DNA from: an uncultured Flavobacteriales bacterium
GTDB lineage: Bacteria > Bacteroidota > Bacteroidia > Flavobacteriales > BACL11
DNA: 39,089 bases
NCBI GenBank assembly: GCA_905612305.1
Contig: CAJQRK010000018.1
Span: forward strand, 1-39,089
Direction of reading: 5' to 3'
In this document: positions 7,448 to 34,334 of the stretch, in pieces
Numbering within the stretch: the stretch's first letter is position 1
Layout of the letters: every line of letters starts with the position of its first letter
Notes under the pieces: generated by a model
The model's input: only the letters and a program-made list of their open reading frames with translations
The model's database searches: none
What the model was told of the DNA's origin: nothing
Made by a program: the position numbers and the translations under genes

Positions 7448-9067
7448 ATGAAAACAACTTTACAATCCGTATTTACAATTGCTCTCTTAAGTTTAGGGCT
7501 TTCAGTAAGTGCTCAAAAAGGAAATAGATATCTTGATGATGTCTTTTCAGCAGTAACAGTTACTAGTGATGTAACTTATGCTACAAATATTAGCATATTA
7601 CCTATGCTTTCAGGATTACCTCCTGGTCCTGCAACTTTGAAATGTGATATTTATGAGCCAGATGGAGATGTTTTAACGAATCGTCCTGTAATTATTTTAG
7701 TGCATACAGGCAGTTTTCTGCCCCCTATAGCAAATGGACAAGCAACAGGATCTAAAACAGATTTATCAATAGTTGAACAATGTACCAGATGGGCAAAAAA
7801 AGGATATGTTGCAGTTGCTATGGAAAATCGTTTAGGCTGGAACCCAACATCTACTGACCAAAATGTAAGAACCTCTACCTTATTACAAGCAGCATATAGA
7901 GGAATTCAAGATGCTAAAGCTATGGTTAGATATATGAGAATGACTGAAGCTACAGGAAATCCTTACGGAATTGATGAATCAAAAATTGTATTAGGAGGGC
8001 AAGGAACTGGTGCTTATATCTCATTGGGCTATGCTACTCTTAGTGAGGAATCGGAGTTGTTTTTACCTAAATTTTTAGATTTTTCTGACCCCGCAAATCC
8101 TATTCCTTATGTTTACCCTCCAGTATTTGGTAATATTGATGGAACAGATAGTACTTATGCTCCTGTTTATGATACAGATACAACTTCGGCAACTTATGGA
8201 CAGATAATCGGTCAAATGCCATTTAATATTCCAAACAATCTTGGTTATAGTAATGATGTAAATATGGTATTTAATTTAGGTGGTGCTCTTGCTGATATTT
8301 CATGGCTAGAAGCTGGTGATGTCCCTATGGTTTCTTTCCATTGTGAAAAAGATCCTTACGCACCAATTGATACTGGTGATGTCATTGTACCAACAACTGG
8401 AGACTTTGTTGTTGAAGTTATGGGAAGTAGAACCGTACAAGCAATGCAAAATACTTATAATAATAATCCATACGGAGCATGGGATTGGATTTCTGATCCT
8501 ATTACAACAGCTGCTAATATAAATAATGGTGGATATGATGGGCTATATGTTTTTAAAACACCTCCTCCATCTACAACACCAAATGCATTTGGTGAGCTAG
8601 AAGAAGAGCAAGGTTCTCCTTGGGATTGGTGGGACAATGCAACTTATGATGCGTATTTTACAGGTTATCATGGAACTCCAGCTGGATATGGTGCGGCCAA
8701 CTCTTTACTTGGAAACCCTAATATGTCAGCTGCTAATGGAAATTTATATTTAGACACAATACAAGGCTATTTAAACCCTAGAATGTATTTAACTCTAGGA
8801 TTAGGAACAGCTTTATCAGTAAATGAGTTGATAGTTCAAACAACTGAAATCTATCCAAATCCAGCTAATAATGTTTTAAACATTGTGAGTTATACCGTAG
8901 GAATTGAAAACATTTATATTTACAATACAAATGGCCAGTTAGTATTAGCTAATGAAGTTAGTGCTAACCAAATTAGATTAAATACCTCTACTCTTTCAAA
9001 AGGAGTTTATATTGTTGATATTAAATCTAAAGACACATCAATAAAAAGAAAACTTATTATTGAGTAA
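7448..9067 (+). CDS. T9SS-exported alpha/beta-hydrolase-fold protein lacking the nucleophilic serine
   Basis: A 539-residue secreted protein. The signal peptide is about 1-22 (ending SVSAQ). An esterase/lipase-like core covers about 60-320: VIILVHTGSF sits where HGGG-type oxyanion loops occur, VAVAMENRLGW follows, and SFHCEKDPYAP supplies an acid-type Asp302. The nucleophile elbow reads LGGQGTGAY (183-190), so the Gly-x-Ser-x-Gly serine position is Gly186. Either another residue acts or the protein is not a classical esterase. The last 80 or so residues are a T9SS type A sorting domain (EIYPNPANNVLNI, YIYNTNGQLV, LSKGVYIVDI, KRKLIIE), so it should be exported through PorT-dependent secretion. 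The terminator at 9093 follows closely. Confidence 0.8.
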   Translation: MKTTLQSVFTIALLSLGLSVSAQKGNRYLDDVFSAVTVTSDVTYATNISILPMLSGLPPGPATLKCDIYEPDGDVLTNRPVIILVHTGSFLPPIANGQATGSKTDLSIVEQCTRWAKKGYVAVAMENRLGWNPTSTDQNVRTSTLLQAAYRGIQDAKAMVRYMRMTEATGNPYGIDESKIVLGGQGTGAYISLGYATLSEESELFLPKFLDFSDPANPIPYVYPPVFGNIDGTDSTYAPVYDTDTTSATYGQIIGQMPFNIPNNLGYSNDVNMVFNLGGALADISWLEAGDVPMVSFHCEKDPYAPIDTGDVIVPTTGDFVVEVMGSRTVQAMQNTYNNNPYGAWDWISDPITTAANINNGGYDGLYVFKTPPPSTTPNAFGELEEEQGSPWDWWDNATYDAYFTGYHGTPAGYGAANSLLGNPNMSAANGNLYLDTIQGYLNPRMYLTLGLGTALSVNELIVQTTEIYPNPANNVLNIVSYTVGIENIYIYNTNGQLVLANEVSANQIRLNTSTLSKGVYIVDIKSKDTSIKRKLIIE

Positions 9068-22606: not shown

Positions 22607-25387
22607 CTACTCTATCTTTATTTTCCTTTCCACCCTGCCATCATCATAAATGTAAAATAAAGTAGTTTTTTCACCAACTTGAACAGGATCAACTTCCCTA
22701 CCTAATACATCAATAATTTTAATAAGTTGTGATGAATTATCAGTTTTGATATCAGAAATACTAGTACTACTATTAGCATCCCAAAGGTATAAATCATCAA
22801 CAGCCGCCTCTATCAAACTACCGCTACTTAAGGCTCCATTAGTACTGTCAGAAGCAACAAATCTTAATTGCACCTGGGTGCCTGTTAAGCTAACATAATC
22901 TTTTGCCCTAAAAGCAAATCTCCTCCAACTAATATCGGAAGTAAGGTTGTTTTCAACTGCCAGCCAATTTACTCCATCATCAGTAATAGATACTTGCCAC
23001 CAATCAGCATTTGGCTCTGCGCCTGTATTATTAGTAAACCACCTCCAATAACTAAAAGCAGGATTAATGTAATCTGTCATATCATAATAAGGAGAATAAA
23101 GTGTAGTGTGTCCATCATCAACATCATTTTCTCCTATACTCGCAGAGGATGAAGATGCATTTCCTGTAAAAGCACAATTGCTACCTCCTGTCGTATGTTG
23201 ATCGTCTGTTTGTACAATAGTATTTGGATCTCCTAGGTCGCTATATGAACCAAGTGGATCTCCAATTTCCCACATTCCTGTACCTGCATTATCATTTACA
23301 TCTCCTGTTTGCCAAAATCCTATATTGAAATCAAAATCCTCTTCTGCTAATAATTCATATCCAACCATAATAAAATAGGGAACATTAGCATTATCTAAAG
23401 GGAGTAAATTAGCAGCCATAGGCGTGATTCCAGATTCATTCCCATAATTATCAGTTAATGAAATATAATAAGCTATAACGGTTCCATTTGACTGTGCAGG
23501 GATGGTTGTTGTAAAAGATGAAACACCACTCATTGCAAGATTATTCCAAGTAGTTCCATCATTTAACCTATAAAAACAATTCGCAGAACCTAAAGCCCAA
23601 GGATAAGTAATTCCAACACTTGCATTAATGGTAATAGTTGAGTTTCCAACAGTAGAACTTACTGGATTATGAGAGATGACAGCATTTGACAAGAGAGTAA
23701 TACCATGAAGTGCGAAAGCACTTACAATAGCAATATCATTAGGTGTACCATTACTTAAATTAGCATCATTATCATCTGCAAAAAGCACTTCAATTAGGAT
23801 GTCAGTAAAAATAGCCCCTTCTGTACCACTAGGACCATCTACTCCACTATCATATGTATATTTGAATAAATCAAGCATCTGATTCATATTATTAAAATTA
23901 AGATAAGTATCCCAAAAACATCCAGCAATAATCTCGCCATCAGCATGAACCTCACCAACTAAATCTTGTGGATACACTTTCCGATCTTGATAATCTCTAA
24001 TTGAATATGTTGGGTCAACTAAATCCCACCCAAGACCAATAAATGGAGAGGCAGTTAATGAAAATGCCCAAATATCAGCAAATCCTTCACCCAAAGCTCC
24101 ATTCCACATTCCTGATCCAGAGTTGTATCTATAATCATTTATTGCATGTCCATATTCATGATATGCAACATCAGGAATTTTTGCTGTTGCTTGACAACCA
24201 TTACCTTCTGCATAAAAATTTATCGTTCCCCCACTATAAAAAGCATTACAGCTTCCTTGTTCATCAACATTAGTCTCCAAAGGACCATCAAGACCTGTAA
24301 AAGTTGGAAAAACTGACTTTAAGTGATCATGAATCATATTTACCGCATAATAAGCTGTTCGCTCCTGTATTGTTGAGTTAGTAGAGTTATCAAAGATAAT
24401 TGTATTAGTCGCTCCTAAATTTGAAAGAATATCAGGAGTAACATTATTAGTTTGCACATCAGCATATAGCCCTTCTAATGTATATCGAATAGAAGTTCCA
24501 CTAGCAACAGAACCAAAATCTACATCACCATTTACATCTGAATAGTAATTTGTATTGGTAGATTGATCAATAGCTTTGAGATATTTAAATTTTTCACTTG
24601 ATGCTGGATTATATGGATGAGTAGTATACACATCACCTGAAACATTTGTAGTTATTGGTGGCGATTCATACATCACTTCATTTTTACGCATTAAGAGCTC
24701 TCCGGTGTGTGCATCAACATAACAGATGTAGTGAGCAGGACCCTCATCAATTCTAGTCTTAAATTTCACGACATACACCAAATTATATTCATGTTTTCTG
24801 TACTTAGGATTTGCAAGCACTTTCAGATCTTTATGCACAATAATATCAGAAATTAAAGCTGAAATATTAGAAGTAGCACTTGCAATAGCACTCTGCTCAT
24901 TAATTGTTGGAACAATACTAATATTGATATCATTAAATATATCAAGCCCAAAAGAAATAAGCTCATTTGCTAAAGAAAACTTAGCATACAACTTACTGTT
25001 AACTACTTCCAGGTTATTATAATATTGCACATAAGTTTGATTGAAATATTTATCATTTTTTGTTGATGAGTGTTCTCTTAAGTCAACTGGTAAAACAAAA
25101 TTATTTGTTGCTAAAAATGAAAACAAATCATTTATTTGGATTGGTGCTCCAAAAGCTCTATGTGGCATTTGGTTGTTTTCGTTAAAAATCACAAACCAAT
25201 CAGGATTTATCATCATGAAATTTTGCCACATTTCAGAATTCCTTAATTGCTGTTGGTATTGAGGATTCAACTCAACATTCTTCTTTACATATCTAACTTC
25301 ATTTTCGTCAGTATGAGTATGCTTTGCAGCAAAGGCTGAAGAAAATACTAATACTATTAAGATGAGTGATAGAATATTCTCTTTCAT
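22607..25387 (-). CDS. Secreted M36 (fungalysin)-like zinc metalloprotease with C-terminal sorting signature
   Basis: A 926-residue exported protease. A signal peptide (about 1-20) is followed by an FTP/PepSY-like propeptide (about 30-240, including HYICYVDAHTGELLMRKNEV). The catalytic domain has VAYHEYGHAIND (His410, Glu411, His414) and the third ligand Glu434 in GEGFADIW. After about 590 come beta-sandwich domains, including a jellyroll-like region (FDFNIGFWQTGDVNDNAGTG). The C-terminus IKIIDVLGREVDPVQ and TLFYIYDDGRVERKIKIE is a short T9SS-type sorting signature, the same type as in the two LRR proteins of the window. It is convergent with the dihydroorotase-like gene with one base between the stops. 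Confidence 0.88.
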   Translation of the reverse strand: MKENILSLILIVLVFSSAFAAKHTHTDENEVRYVKKNVELNPQYQQQLRNSEMWQNFMMINPDWFVIFNENNQMPHRAFGAPIQINDLFSFLATNNFVLPVDLREHSSTKNDKYFNQTYVQYYNNLEVVNSKLYAKFSLANELISFGLDIFNDINISIVPTINEQSAIASATSNISALISDIIVHKDLKVLANPKYRKHEYNLVYVVKFKTRIDEGPAHYICYVDAHTGELLMRKNEVMYESPPITTNVSGDVYTTHPYNPASSEKFKYLKAIDQSTNTNYYSDVNGDVDFGSVASGTSIRYTLEGLYADVQTNNVTPDILSNLGATNTIIFDNSTNSTIQERTAYYAVNMIHDHLKSVFPTFTGLDGPLETNVDEQGSCNAFYSGGTINFYAEGNGCQATAKIPDVAYHEYGHAINDYRYNSGSGMWNGALGEGFADIWAFSLTASPFIGLGWDLVDPTYSIRDYQDRKVYPQDLVGEVHADGEIIAGCFWDTYLNFNNMNQMLDLFKYTYDSGVDGPSGTEGAIFTDILIEVLFADDNDANLSNGTPNDIAIVSAFALHGITLLSNAVISHNPVSSTVGNSTITINASVGITYPWALGSANCFYRLNDGTTWNNLAMSGVSSFTTTIPAQSNGTVIAYYISLTDNYGNESGITPMAANLLPLDNANVPYFIMVGYELLAEEDFDFNIGFWQTGDVNDNAGTGMWEIGDPLGSYSDLGDPNTIVQTDDQHTTGGSNCAFTGNASSSSASIGENDVDDGHTTLYSPYYDMTDYINPAFSYWRWFTNNTGAEPNADWWQVSITDDGVNWLAVENNLTSDISWRRFAFRAKDYVSLTGTQVQLRFVASDSTNGALSSGSLIEAAVDDLYLWDANSSTSISDIKTDNSSQLIKIIDVLGREVDPVQVGEKTTLFYIYDDGRVERKIKIE

Positions 25388-30971: not shown

Positions 30972-32201
30972 TTACTCTACAGCTATTCTTTTCTCTACCG
31001 TTCCATCATCATAGATGTAAAAGAGAACTTCATTCTTAGTTCCCTTTGTTTCTCTTCCTAATAGGTCTGTTACTTTCAGAAGTTCCTTGTTTGTAGTTTG
31101 TTCTTCTACGCTAGTTCCACTACAGTTATTACTGAAATAATGCTGTGGGTCTATATTACCATTAGCTACAAATAAATTATCTGTTGACCAAGTTGCATCA
31201 TCCACATTGATACAATATAATGAAGAGTTCCATTGACAAATTACAAAATAGCTACCTATAGAGCTAATCCATTCCCAATTTAGATTATTACCATTTCTTA
31301 AATCAAGACTTATGAGGTGATTATTTCTACAATATAATTTTGTTAAAACAATATTAGTACTTAGGTCAAGGCTTGTTAGGTTATTATCACCACAAGACAA
31401 TTCGTTCAAAAAAGTATTTTGACTTACATCAAGACTAGTGAGATTATTATCATCACACCCTAAAGTAGTTAAAGCAGTATTTTGACTTACATCAAGACTA
31501 GTGAGTTGATTATCATCACAACTCAATTCATCTAAAGCAGTGCAGCCACTTACATCAAGGCTTGTAAGTAGATTGTCAAAACACACTAATTGAGTCAAAT
31601 CTATATTATTGATTAAATTAAGGCTTGTTAATTGATTAGAATAACATAATAATAATGTTAGTACATTGTTATTACTTACATCAAGGGTTGTGAGTTGATT
31701 ATTTGAACAAAATAAACTAGTTAAAGCAGTATTTTGACTTACGTCAAGGCTTGTGAGTTGATTGTTGTCACAACCCAAATGAGTTAGAGCAATATTTTGA
31801 CTTACGTCAAGGCTTGTGAGTAGATTAGAAGAACAATACAAATAAATTAAAGCTGTATTTTGACTTACATCCAAGCTGGTGAGTTGATTGCCTAGACAAT
31901 ACAAATCAGTTAAATCAGTATTTTGACTTACATCAAGACTAGTGAGTTGATTATAAGCACAACTCAATTCATCTAAAGCAGTAAAATCTTCTATTCCTGT
32001 TAAAACAGCAATATTATTACTTCCCACATATAAAGAAGTTACTGTATTGATATTTGCAGTTGTTACATAATCATCATTAAGTATTCCATTACCCATTCCA
32101 TTATTCTCTAAATAATTCTCAAAATTATCATCAGGAACAAAGGTTTGTTGCCCAAAACCAATCATAGGCAAGCAAAGTAATATAAGTAGTAGTTTTTTCA
32201 T
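30972..32201 (-). CDS. Secreted leucine-rich-repeat protein with cysteine-containing 21-residue repeats and C-terminal sorting signature
   Basis: A 409-residue exported protein. The signal peptide is MKKLLLILLCLPMIGFGQ, followed by a cap (FVPDDNFENYLENNG, VTTANINTVTSLYV). Ten full 21-residue LRRs occupy residues 86-295, each of the form LTSLDVSQNTAL followed by xxLxCxxNQ, with one Cys per repeat as in the cysteine ladder of internalin J. A post-LRR cap follows (CINVDDATWSTDNLFVANG, HYFSNNC). The C-terminus KELLKVTDLLGRETKGT and VLFYIYDDGTVEKRIAVE is a short T9SS-type sorting signature. LRRs usually bind proteins or glycans. The ligand is unknown. A paralogue lies at 32511-33554. Confidence 0.85.
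   Translation of the reverse strand: MKKLLLILLCLPMIGFGQQTFVPDDNFENYLENNGMGNGILNDDYVTTANINTVTSLYVGSNNIAVLTGIEDFTALDELSCAYNQLTSLDVSQNTDLTDLYCLGNQLTSLDVSQNTALIYLYCSSNLLTSLDVSQNIALTHLGCDNNQLTSLDVSQNTALTSLFCSNNQLTTLDVSNNNVLTLLLCYSNQLTSLNLINNIDLTQLVCFDNLLTSLDVSGCTALDELSCDDNQLTSLDVSQNTALTTLGCDDNNLTSLDVSQNTFLNELSCGDNNLTSLDLSTNIVLTKLYCRNNHLISLDLRNGNNLNWEWISSIGSYFVICQWNSSLYCINVDDATWSTDNLFVANGNIDPQHYFSNNCSGTSVEEQTTNKELLKVTDLLGRETKGTKNEVLFYIYDDGTVEKRIAVE
30977..31095 (-). repeat. Sorting-signature-coding repeat, copy A
   Basis: A 119-base segment coding the C-terminal signature of the first LRR protein. It is nearly identical to 32516-32634: I count about ten differences, with an exact shared run of about 41 bases. 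Confidence 0.8.
31317..31946 (-). repeat. Tandem 63-bp LRR-coding array (10 units)
   Basis: Ten in-frame 63-base units encode the 21-residue LRRs at residues 86-295. Several units share runs such as TTGATGTAAGTCAAAATAC, so parts of the array look recently amplified or converted, whereas units 6 and 7 are more diverged. Confidence 0.85.
32158..32201 (-). repeat. Signal-peptide-coding repeat, copy 1
   Basis: The first 44 bases of the LRR gene. They are identical to 33940-33983 and differ by one base from 33511-33554, including silent positions such as CTACTACTTATATTAC. Confidence 0.85.
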
Positions 32202-32510: not shown

Positions 32511-33554
32511 TTATTCTACAACTATTCTTTTCTCTACTGTTCCATCATCATAGATGTAAAAGAGAACTTCATTCTTAGTGCCTTTTGTTTCTCTTCCTAA
32601 TAGGTCTTGTACTTTAAGAAGTTCTTTGTTTGTGGAGTGTTCTTGTATTGCGCTTACTCCACAAGCAGTATTACACGCAGATACTGTTGAATATTGTCCG
32701 TTGCCTGTTCCAGGGTCATTACATACTCCATTGTTACAATCCCAAGAAGGTGTATTTGCACAATTATTACTAAAGTAATGTTGAGGGTCTATATATCCAA
32801 CTGGCCAATTAACATTAGACCAGCTAACATTATCTACATTTATACAGAACAGGTTAGGATTATTATAGCTAAGAAGTGTATCGGTGAAGTTTGTATTATT
32901 TCCGTTTCTTAAATCAAGACTGGTAAGTTGATTATTATTACATCTCAATTGAGTTAAAGAAATATTTTGACTTACATCTAAAGAAGCAAGTTGATTAGAA
33001 GTACCATACAAAGTAGTTAAAGCAGTATTTTGACTTACATCAAGGCTTGTTAGTTGATTATATTCACAATACAAAGTAGTTAAAGCAGCATTAGTACTTA
33101 CATCTAGATTGCCAAGTAGATTGCCTCCACAATCCAACCCAATTAAAACAGTATTAGCACTTACATCAAGTGTTGTGAGTTGATTGCCACCACATTGTAA
33201 CCAAGCTAAAGCAGTATTATTGTTTACATTCAAGTTGCCGAGTGGATTATTATCACATTCTAAATAAGTTAAAGCAGTATTTTGACTTACATCAAGACTA
33301 GTGAGTTGATTAGACCAACAATGCAGATAAGTTAAAGCAGTAAAAGCTTCTATGCCTGTTAAATCAGAGATATTCTGACCACCAACATCTAAAATAGTTA
33401 CTGTATTAATATTTGCAGTAGGTACTGACCCATCTGGAGTTCCAGTATCATAACCTAAATTAATAAGAGCCTGTTCAAAATTAGCATCAGGTATCAGTGT
33501 TTGTCCAAGCCCAATCAAAGGCAAGCAAAGTAATATAAGTAGTAGTTTTTTCAT
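32511..33554 (-). CDS. Secreted leucine-rich-repeat protein (paralogue) with Cys-rich mini-module and sorting signature
   Basis: A 347-residue paralogue of the 30972 protein. The signal peptide is MKKLLLILLCLPLIGLGQ and the cap is TLIPDANFEQALINLGYD. Six full 21-residue LRRs lie at 84-209. One of them (LYGTSNQ) has lost the repeat cysteine. The post-LRR cap (FCINVDNVSWSNVNW, HYFSNNC) is followed by an extra module not in the other copy: WDCNNGVCNDPGTGNGQY, then CNTACG, a compact four-Cys motif. The C-terminus KELLKVQDLLGRETKGT and VLFYIYDDGTVEKRIVVE matches the paralogue closely at both protein and DNA level. Function unknown; surface display or adhesion is a guess from the domains. Confidence 0.85.
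   Translation of the reverse strand: MKKLLLILLCLPLIGLGQTLIPDANFEQALINLGYDTGTPDGSVPTANINTVTILDVGGQNISDLTGIEAFTALTYLHCWSNQLTSLDVSQNTALTYLECDNNPLGNLNVNNNTALAWLQCGGNQLTTLDVSANTVLIGLDCGGNLLGNLDVSTNAALTTLYCEYNQLTSLDVSQNTALTTLYGTSNQLASLDVSQNISLTQLRCNNNQLTSLDLRNGNNTNFTDTLLSYNNPNLFCINVDNVSWSNVNWPVGYIDPQHYFSNNCANTPSWDCNNGVCNDPGTGNGQYSTVSACNTACGVSAIQEHSTNKELLKVQDLLGRETKGTKNEVLFYIYDDGTVEKRIVVE
32516..32634 (-). repeat. Sorting-signature-coding repeat, copy B
   Basis: Partner of 30977-31095, in the second LRR gene. About 92% identical by eye over 119 bases. Confidence 0.8.
32928..33305 (-). repeat. Tandem 63-bp LRR-coding array (6 units)
   Basis: Six in-frame 63-base units coding residues 84-209 of the second LRR protein. 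Units alternate between a LTSLDVSQNTAL type and a LGNLDVSTNAAL type, which suggests that an early two-unit duplication took place. Confidence 0.75.
33511..33554 (-). repeat. Signal-peptide-coding repeat, copy 2
   Basis: The first 44 bases of the second LRR gene. One base differs from copies 1 and 3, changing Met13 to Leu. Confidence 0.85.
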
Positions 33555-33998: not shown

Positions 33999-34334
33999 TT
34001 AATAAAACAAATGCATTTTTTCTTTCTTTTTCCAACCTGCTCTACTACTATAATCAGTAAAAAAAATGATAACATCAGCTTGTGAAGCGTAGTCCACAAA
34101 AAATATTTTCTTATCTGCCCTACTTGCATAATCTACAAAAAACCAATTCCCATCATTCTCGCCTGCACGGCTTTCATAATCCACTTTAAATACAGACAAA
34201 TCAGCTCTGCTTTCATAGTCAGCAACAAATACTTTTACATCAGCTTGGCTTGCGTATTCAACCGAGAATACCTTTTGTGCATTTGTAATGCCTGAAATCA
34301 ACAGACATACAGTTAAAAATAATGATTTTTTCAT
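33999..34334 (-). CDS. DUF6150-like secreted repeat protein
   Basis: A 111-residue exported protein with a different signal peptide from its neighbours (MKKSLFLTVCLLISGITNAQ). The mature part is almost wholly six short repeats of 12-16 residues: VFSVEYASQADVK, VFVADYESRADLS, VFKVDYESRAGEN, WFFVDYASRADKK, IFFVDYASQADVI, IFFTDYSSRAGWK. The alternating hydrophobic-Asp-Tyr-x-Ser-x-Ala pattern matches what I know of the DUF6150 family and suggests a small beta-repeat fold. Function unknown. It is the first gene of the minus-strand group, divergent from aspC. Confidence 0.7.
   Translation of the reverse strand: MKKSLFLTVCLLISGITNAQKVFSVEYASQADVKVFVADYESRADLSVFKVDYESRAGENDGNWFFVDYASRADKKIFFVDYASQADVIIFFTDYSSRAGWKKKEKMHLFY

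Follow-up and report, generated by a model that had tools for sequence, protein, structure and literature searches.

A short C-terminal module of Flavobacteriales secreted proteins as a probable reduced relative of the type A T9SS sorting domain

Introduction

Do secreted proteins encoded side by side in one bacterium end in two kinds of T9SS sorting signal, and is the shorter kind a distinct class or a clade-specific variant of the longer one? The question is raised by a window of 39,089 nucleotides (the whole stretch of DNA analysed here) from an uncultured Flavobacteriales bacterium, in which a metalloprotease-like protein appeared to share a short C-terminus with two LRR proteins. The source genome is a 75%-complete MAG of 1.33 Mb in 77 contigs.

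Three short tails and one ordinary domain

The metalloprotease-like secreted protein (22607..25387, minus strand; 926 aa) has a signal peptide and contains HEYGH...GEGFADIWAF. This motif makes the metalloprotease label reasonable, but the family assignment is weak: the thermolysin-like model NF047971 gives 31.5 bits against a cut-off of 1350, PepSY stays below its cut-off, and among PDB sequences none matched the protein. Its C-terminal end is ...SSTSISDIKTDNSSQLIKIIDVLGREVDPVQVGEKTTLFYIYDDGRVERKIKIE, also given as LIKIIDVLGREVDPVQVGEKTTLFYIYDDGRVERKIKIE. The range first marked for this tail, 22607-22750, was slightly short. The stop codon occupies 22607-22609, and the 54-aa module (22610..22771, minus strand) reaches about position 22771 once the preceding TSI is counted. 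This TSI (22757..22765, minus strand) is a candidate PorU cleavage motif (T|S-I), a role proposed from the available text of PMC11969387.

Both LRR proteins carry the same module. The first (30972..32201, minus strand; 409 aa) matches PF12799 in eight stretches and has its module at 30975..31130 (minus strand). The second (32511..33554, minus strand; 347 aa) matches PF12799 in four, and its module (32514..32669, minus strand) supplied the sequence for the AlphaFold2 model described below. Their C-terminal ends read ...KELLKV[T/Q]DLLGRETKGTKNEVLFYIYDDGTVEKRI[A/V]VE, and the consensus of the module common to all three proteins is TxIxE…K-L-hK-hxDxLGRE…N-x-P-LFYIYDDGTVEKKIIIE. The protease copy is the most diverged of the three. 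Its likeness to the LRR tail, proposed from the letters alone, is borne out at 50% identity and is no chance match, because the whole-genome search returned it at E 5.1e-7. Against profile A1, which was built with this copy among its members, it scores E 2.5e-19.

The contrast within the window is an alpha/beta hydrolase (BD-FAE; 7448..9067, plus strand), whose C-terminus (8804..9064, plus strand) had been read as a classical type A domain. This reading was correct: TIGR04183 matches the protein with 53.9 bits (cut-off 23) and PF18962 with 57.8 bits (cut-off 27), and neither model is matched by the three short-tailed proteins.

The window also encodes, at 33999-34334 (minus strand), a 111-aa protein built of repeats like VFFVDYASRADxxxFxVDYxSQAD, which no NCBIfam model matches.

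An unmodelled module at the ends of putatively exported proteins

Searching the source genome with one of the LRR tails located 28 places. Twenty-four are clear and each ends at a stop codon, and four are weak, namely three short remnants (one with an internal stop) and one diverged C-terminus. The same genome holds 35 TIGR04183 (type A) places and 14 TIGR04131 (type B) places; by coordinate comparison, none of the 35 overlaps any of the 28. Alignment of the 24 clear modules leaves F, Y, G and V invariant, with eight more columns at 90% or above.

All 24 stay below the cut-offs of the Pfam and NCBIfam models. TIGR04183 touches three of them, with a best E of 0.044, while PF18962, the type B model TIGR04131 and the type C model NF033708 match none up to E 1. 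PDB sequences searched with the short-module profile gave none up to E 10. The motif strings were not found in print, and a literature search on short or new sorting domain classes turned up the P. intermedia work alone.

Isolated module ends were also seen at L033, L034 and L035 (G000:C5, C77 and C56), in frames of 24-38 aa, one with an internal stop; they look like remnants of lost cargo genes.

A sorting signal would be expected at the C-termini of exported proteins. Across all collected loci, 168/172 non-identical matches end no more than five residues from the stop. The other four comprise one frame that runs off its locus, one type A domain (in genome G106) and two chance stretches (E > 300). 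By a simple rule of our own, a signal-peptide-like start is present in 105/118 complete short-tailed frames, compared with 10/14 type A frames and 58/261 other or control frames (short-tailed versus other, Fisher p 4e-36). Matches away from the C-termini of exported proteins, which would have spoken against the original prediction, are therefore not what the data contain.

Distribution and co-occurrence with SprA

The bearers of the module are marine bacteria, mostly with small genomes. It was found in 52/52 genomes of family f1 in the family survey, and in 95/296 genomes of the order, from families f1, f55, f57, f63 and f56, in the order survey. Family f56 has one or two copies per carrier, although copy numbers are lower bounds here, as in the phylum, SprA and PorU surveys, where part of the candidates was scored for many genomes. 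In GTDB contigs, a single pattern led to 330 confirmed stretches. The titles of the 79 GTDB loci retained from these read Flavobacteriales, Cryomorphaceae or uncultured Bacteroidetes, apart from three loci of a single MAG labelled Chryseobacterium gleum.

The phylum survey matched 3/296 genomes: the source genome, G115 and G106. The G106 match (E 5e-4) is an ordinary type A domain hit at its LGRE loop and is not counted. Outside the order, a confident module occurs in one sampled genome only, G115, where one strong copy (L138, G115:C63:60913-61056; E 1.1e-15) sits on a GH16 beta-glucanase-like protein.

Several minor observations concern the edges of this range. G115 is a 5.2 Mb genome from another order of the class, and its single module is possibly a transfer. 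Several short modules (L057, L067 and L088) come from the MAG labelled Chryseobacterium gleum (TH-08apr19-151), a label that may be wrong. Two distant tails from family f56, genus g173 (L147 and L148), end in ...KLLQIVDLLGRPISEEAKGIQIWLYSDGSSEKHWCP and are possibly an intermediate or decayed form.

Genomes that carry the module also tend to carry SprA. A SprA match is present in 236/296 genomes of the order and in 88/95 module carriers (weakly in G491, E 5.6e-4), and the remaining seven carriers are all less than 90% complete. Every near-complete carrier has SprA (32/32), and no near-complete genome without SprA carries the module (0/51). Matches in genomes without T9SS genes, which would have weakened the prediction, are accordingly absent from the near-complete set. 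The association has a Fisher p of 2e-4, a value that ignores relatedness. SprA is present and the short module absent in 148 genomes; T9SS is therefore insufficient for the module. SprA was not found in the source MAG, and the simplest explanation is that this MAG is 75% complete.

A near-fixed hairpin and the P. intermedia comparison

The sequence of the module was examined in a 162-row alignment, which left out modules with E above 1e-6, with open ends or lying more than five residues from the stop. Measured from the profile start, module length is 38-54 residues. The motif-B Gly is present in 159/162 modules, followed by R or K in 150/162. Within LFYIY, L is found in 152, F in 148, Y in 154, I in 150 and Y in 158 of the 162. 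The Gly of DDG is present in 162/162, V in 151/162 and K in 151/162, with an adjacent K/R in 149/162. The basic residue near the end (motif E), on the last strand, is K or R in 158/162 and 149/162. Mean column identity is 52%, against 37% in type A. As predicted, the short kind lacks the YPNP start, which is absent from the 162-module consensus and present in the 15-member type A set.

In front of the module, the presumed cleavage site has I at +2 in 108/162 and V in 20/162. A [TNDES][SGANDT][IV] site lies within 24 residues before the core in 121/162 modules, against 80.7 expected from shuffles; the same site followed by xE is found in 49/162, against 5.5 on shuffling. Gly never directly precedes LFY (0/154), where P, T or L stands; in the LFY register of motif D, the first residue is Leu in 152/162.

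The closest parallel is P. intermedia. According to the available text of PMC11969387, this species has 48 short domains of 43-55 aa beside 32 long ones, both cleaved and glycan-attached. Each short domain is predicted to fold into one sheet whose three strands correspond to strands 3, 6 and 7, the short domains bind PorV in AlphaFold3 models, and the Gly residues of motifs B and D are absolutely conserved among them. The module described here resembles these short domains (Ye et al. 2025, PMC11969387, in the text available) in its size of about 43-55 aa, terminal position and predicted three-stranded sheet, in the motif-B Gly and the motif-E basic residues with an extra one, and in the presence of long domains in the same genome and of LRR and peptidase cargo. 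It may also share their Ile two residues after the cleavage point. Unlike them, as far as that text describes them, it lacks the motif-D Gly (GxY or GxN), has a nearly fixed YIYDDGTVEK hairpin, is missed by TIGR04183-type models, and occurs in five Flavobacteriales families, mostly with small genomes, rather than in one oral species.

The available text of PMC11969387 also states, as repeated in that of PMC10897501, that P. intermedia is the sole species reported with both short and long domains. The module-bearing genomes contradict this claim.

A match to the second half of type A

The module shares with type A (TIGR04183, PF18962) a C-terminal position, homologous cargo led by signal peptides, the LGR loop and the final basic hairpin, and its profile similarity covers the second half of type A. 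It differs in having about 50 rather than about 75-90 residues, no YPNP strand, three rather than seven predicted strands and scores below the cut-offs; the motif-D GxY is not kept, and the sequence is far more conserved.

HHalign pairs columns 16-54 of the short profile with columns 33-89 of type A, which in each profile is the C-terminal part, with a score of 27.4 and a probability of 74%; a second figure for the same comparison is 26.6. Forty controls derived from the same alignment, one by reversing it and the other 39 by shuffling its columns, average 9.5 and reach 15.9 at most, and the comparison with type B scores 11.8 at a probability of 0.6%. Taken singly against type A, 130/162 modules exceed 14.13, the best score among control C-termini other than sorting domains, and the median is 16.4. 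The top four of the 150 control C-termini are two type A domains, the type A-like L073 and a duplicate short module, and the fifth is a type B domain; over the full control set including these sorting domains, no single module lies above the top control.

Structure prediction points in the same direction. The AlphaFold2 model of the 32511 short tail (115 sequences) has strands at 17-22, 34-40 and 45-50, with a mean pLDDT of 81.9 and a pTM of 0.54. The 7448 type A tail, modelled as a control, has seven strands (pLDDT 86.3) and matches solved T9SS domains (8gl6, Z 10.6; 8qb1, Z 10.2; 8glk, Z 9.9). In the HHalign register, strands 3, 6 and 7 of type A are the counterparts of the three strands predicted for the short tail. 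The prediction is thus one three-stranded sheet and not the seven-stranded sandwich. A PDB fold search with the short model found no significant match (lowest E 0.84; highest Z 3.0, with NUDIX proteins that are unrelated), which counts neither way, because so small a sheet gives such a search too little to work with.

Could the module have arisen independently of type A, its likeness being convergence on PorV? The HHalign probability of just 74% and the modest scores of single modules leave some room for this. The match is, however, colinear from LGRE to the last residue, the strand assignment is the same, a T-S-I...E stretch stands in front of short and type A domains alike, and most single modules exceed the best control other than sorting domains, all of which makes independent origin quite unlikely. 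On the preferred reading, the module keeps the counterparts of type A strands 3, 6 and 7 (a strand plus the LGRE loop, and the last hairpin with its near-terminal basic residue) and, in front of them, a candidate T|(S/A/G)-I type cleavage site, but no longer has the YPNP strand or the other strands of the sandwich.

Exchange of tails between homologous proteins

In eighteen pairs of one short-tailed and one type A protein, the alignment covers 60% or more of each passenger, although several pairs share one partner. In the source genome, the M43 peptidases L027 (short) and L006 (type A) are 36% identical over 312 aa, and the hydrolases L023 (short; G000:C21) and window 7448 (type A) are 32% identical over 280 aa. 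L107 (short) aligns with L115 and L084 (type A) at about 45% across the whole passenger up to the tail. The short module replaces the type A domain on homologous passengers, and does so twice within the source genome.

The cargo is diverse. The 157 short-tailed passengers form 34 clusters, of which the largest is LRR-containing and mixed. Among the source-genome passengers scanned, Pfam names include PHB esterase, BD-FAE, CotH, M43, lamin tail, endonuclease/phosphatase and LRR.

These patterns bear on whether the module is an export signal at all, or a small structural cap or anchoring motif on proteins exported by other means. We only infer export, and the short model has no significant PDB fold match, both of which would suit a cap. 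On the other hand, a cap would hardly be expected on 34 passenger clusters, to stand on homologues exactly where others have type A, to track SprA and to align with type A; this explanation is highly improbable.

Probable handling by PorV and PorU

The source genome encodes the adjoining pair PorU (C7:113548-116826; 1327 bits) and PorV (C7:112334-113380; 429.5 bits), and this PorU itself bears an ordinary long domain. The PorU model is matched in 93/95 carriers, six of them weakly.

According to the available text of PMC12618676, type A uses PorV, and type B a cognate PorP/SprF-like carrier that is often encoded adjacent. The available text of PMC10994853 (cryo-EM) describes type A as bound in a plastic pocket, mainly through hydrophobic contact, with a near-invariant lysine near the end. 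In that work, recognition of type A depends mainly on shape: the pocket has the size of the sandwich, the conserved motifs specify the fold, and the translocon-facing surface of the domain is poorly conserved. A three-stranded sheet with a near-fixed hairpin fits such a shape-read pocket less easily, and another receptor might be needed.

The module could accordingly be a T9SS signal with its own carrier (PorP/SprF-like or another barrel) in place of PorV, and hence a separate class with another destination. Its hairpin is near-fixed (G in all 162 modules, Y in 158 and 154, V and K in 151 each), unlike the translocon-facing surface of type A. Short and type A domains also coexist in genomes on homologous cargo, so a reason to keep both may exist. 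An extra full-scoring PorV was sought in carriers and none was found, the source genome, G048 and G002 each having two PorV-family members, compared with 1-7 in the ten non-carriers searched. In addition, no recurrent gene follows the 115 short-tailed genes inspected, whereas type B cargo usually has an sprF-like carrier next, according to the available text of PMC12618676. The 84 same-strand frames just downstream are 24 short-tailed, two type A and 58 other; the largest cluster has four members, and signal peptides stand at the start of the two largest. Judged by the PorV family and by downstream genes, a separate carrier is unlikely.

The preferred reading, to which we assign a probability of roughly 80%, is that the shared tail is a minimal or reduced signal for T9SS sorting and that, as with type A, PorV and PorU probably handle it. 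A short-tailed protein would enter the periplasm through Sec. Its tail would then be taken into the SprA pore and held there by PorV loops. PorV would hand the tail to PorU, which would cut the TSI-like site and free or anchor the cargo. We infer T9SS export by the short tail, and likewise PorV binding, cleavage and anchoring. The support is computational and consists of the shared module, its terminal position, signal-peptide-like starts, co-occurrence with SprA, the presence in the source genome of one ordinary PorU and one full-scoring PorV, tail exchange, profile similarity and predicted fold.

The precedent is the P. intermedia work, in which short domains undergo cleavage and glycosylation and were modelled on PorV. 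For type A, GFP is exported by the final 22 residues of HBP35 (cited in the available texts of PMC10202324 and PMC11969387), and motif-B changes block RgpB (cited in that of PMC11969387). The HBP35 truncation shows that the final type A hairpin can suffice for GFP export, as the short module would require, but it is a laboratory construct in Porphyromonas gingivalis and no natural class, known here via the two citing papers.

Overall, the module is a real, clade-specific and unmodelled short T9SS-type signal with a P. intermedia-like plan and a distinct sequence, best seen as reduced type A. It likely works like type A and the P. intermedia short domains. We assign it to neither class, because it lacks features of each that were tested. 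Of the two options first raised, a distinct sorting class or a clade-specific variant, the results support clade specificity, and a reduced type A relative describes the module better than an unrelated class.

In a separate comparison, the PorU of four family-f1 genomes (L157-L160), the source genome among them, lacked about 110 N-terminus-proximal residues (columns 73-200) relative to eight other PorU sequences, some of which come from other module-bearing families. Co-adaptation of this shortened PorU to the module was considered and rejected: one or two module-bearing genomes each of f55, f57 and f63 keep the region.

Implications for surface proteomes

In ten family-f1 genomes, type A domains number 35-64 per genome and short modules 12-52. 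Thus, 12-52 exported proteins per genome end in a signal invisible to Pfam and NCBIfam, and surface and secreted proteins are undercounted, because no current model of either database detects the module. One genome can also encode homologous enzymes with a seven-stranded and a three-stranded signal, a natural experiment on the requirements of the T9SS translocon. It is relevant to recognition by shape versus sequence and to motifs B, D and E, whose roles are unsettled.

Cassette-like copies

Some copies resemble one another at the DNA level. Over the last 17 codons of the 24 source-genome copies, residues that agree are also encoded by the same codon in 63.4% of cases, where 52.6% would be expected. 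Across 12 genomes, codon sharing is 60.3% within and 54.5% between genomes, a mild excess. Nine signal-peptide regions of the source genome have a mean DNA identity of 93%, and seven of the nine are on short-tailed genes.

A more speculative proposal is that the short tail marks a separate T9SS class, read by sequence, where type A is read by shape, through a receptor or a PorV/SprA surface specific to these families, giving two parallel surface-sorting routes for homologous enzymes, with the DNA of tag and signal peptide copied between unrelated genes as a plug-in export cassette. We regard this as doubtful.

Two observations on the leaders stand beside this. The signal peptide MKKLLLILLCLPMIGFGQ recurs with near-identical DNA in the window (30397, 30972, 32511 and 33570) and at loci L009-L024. 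Several genes are preceded, and some followed, by a similar leader (caatagattaacaa...); the proteins are unrelated, with conserved ends and a variable middle.
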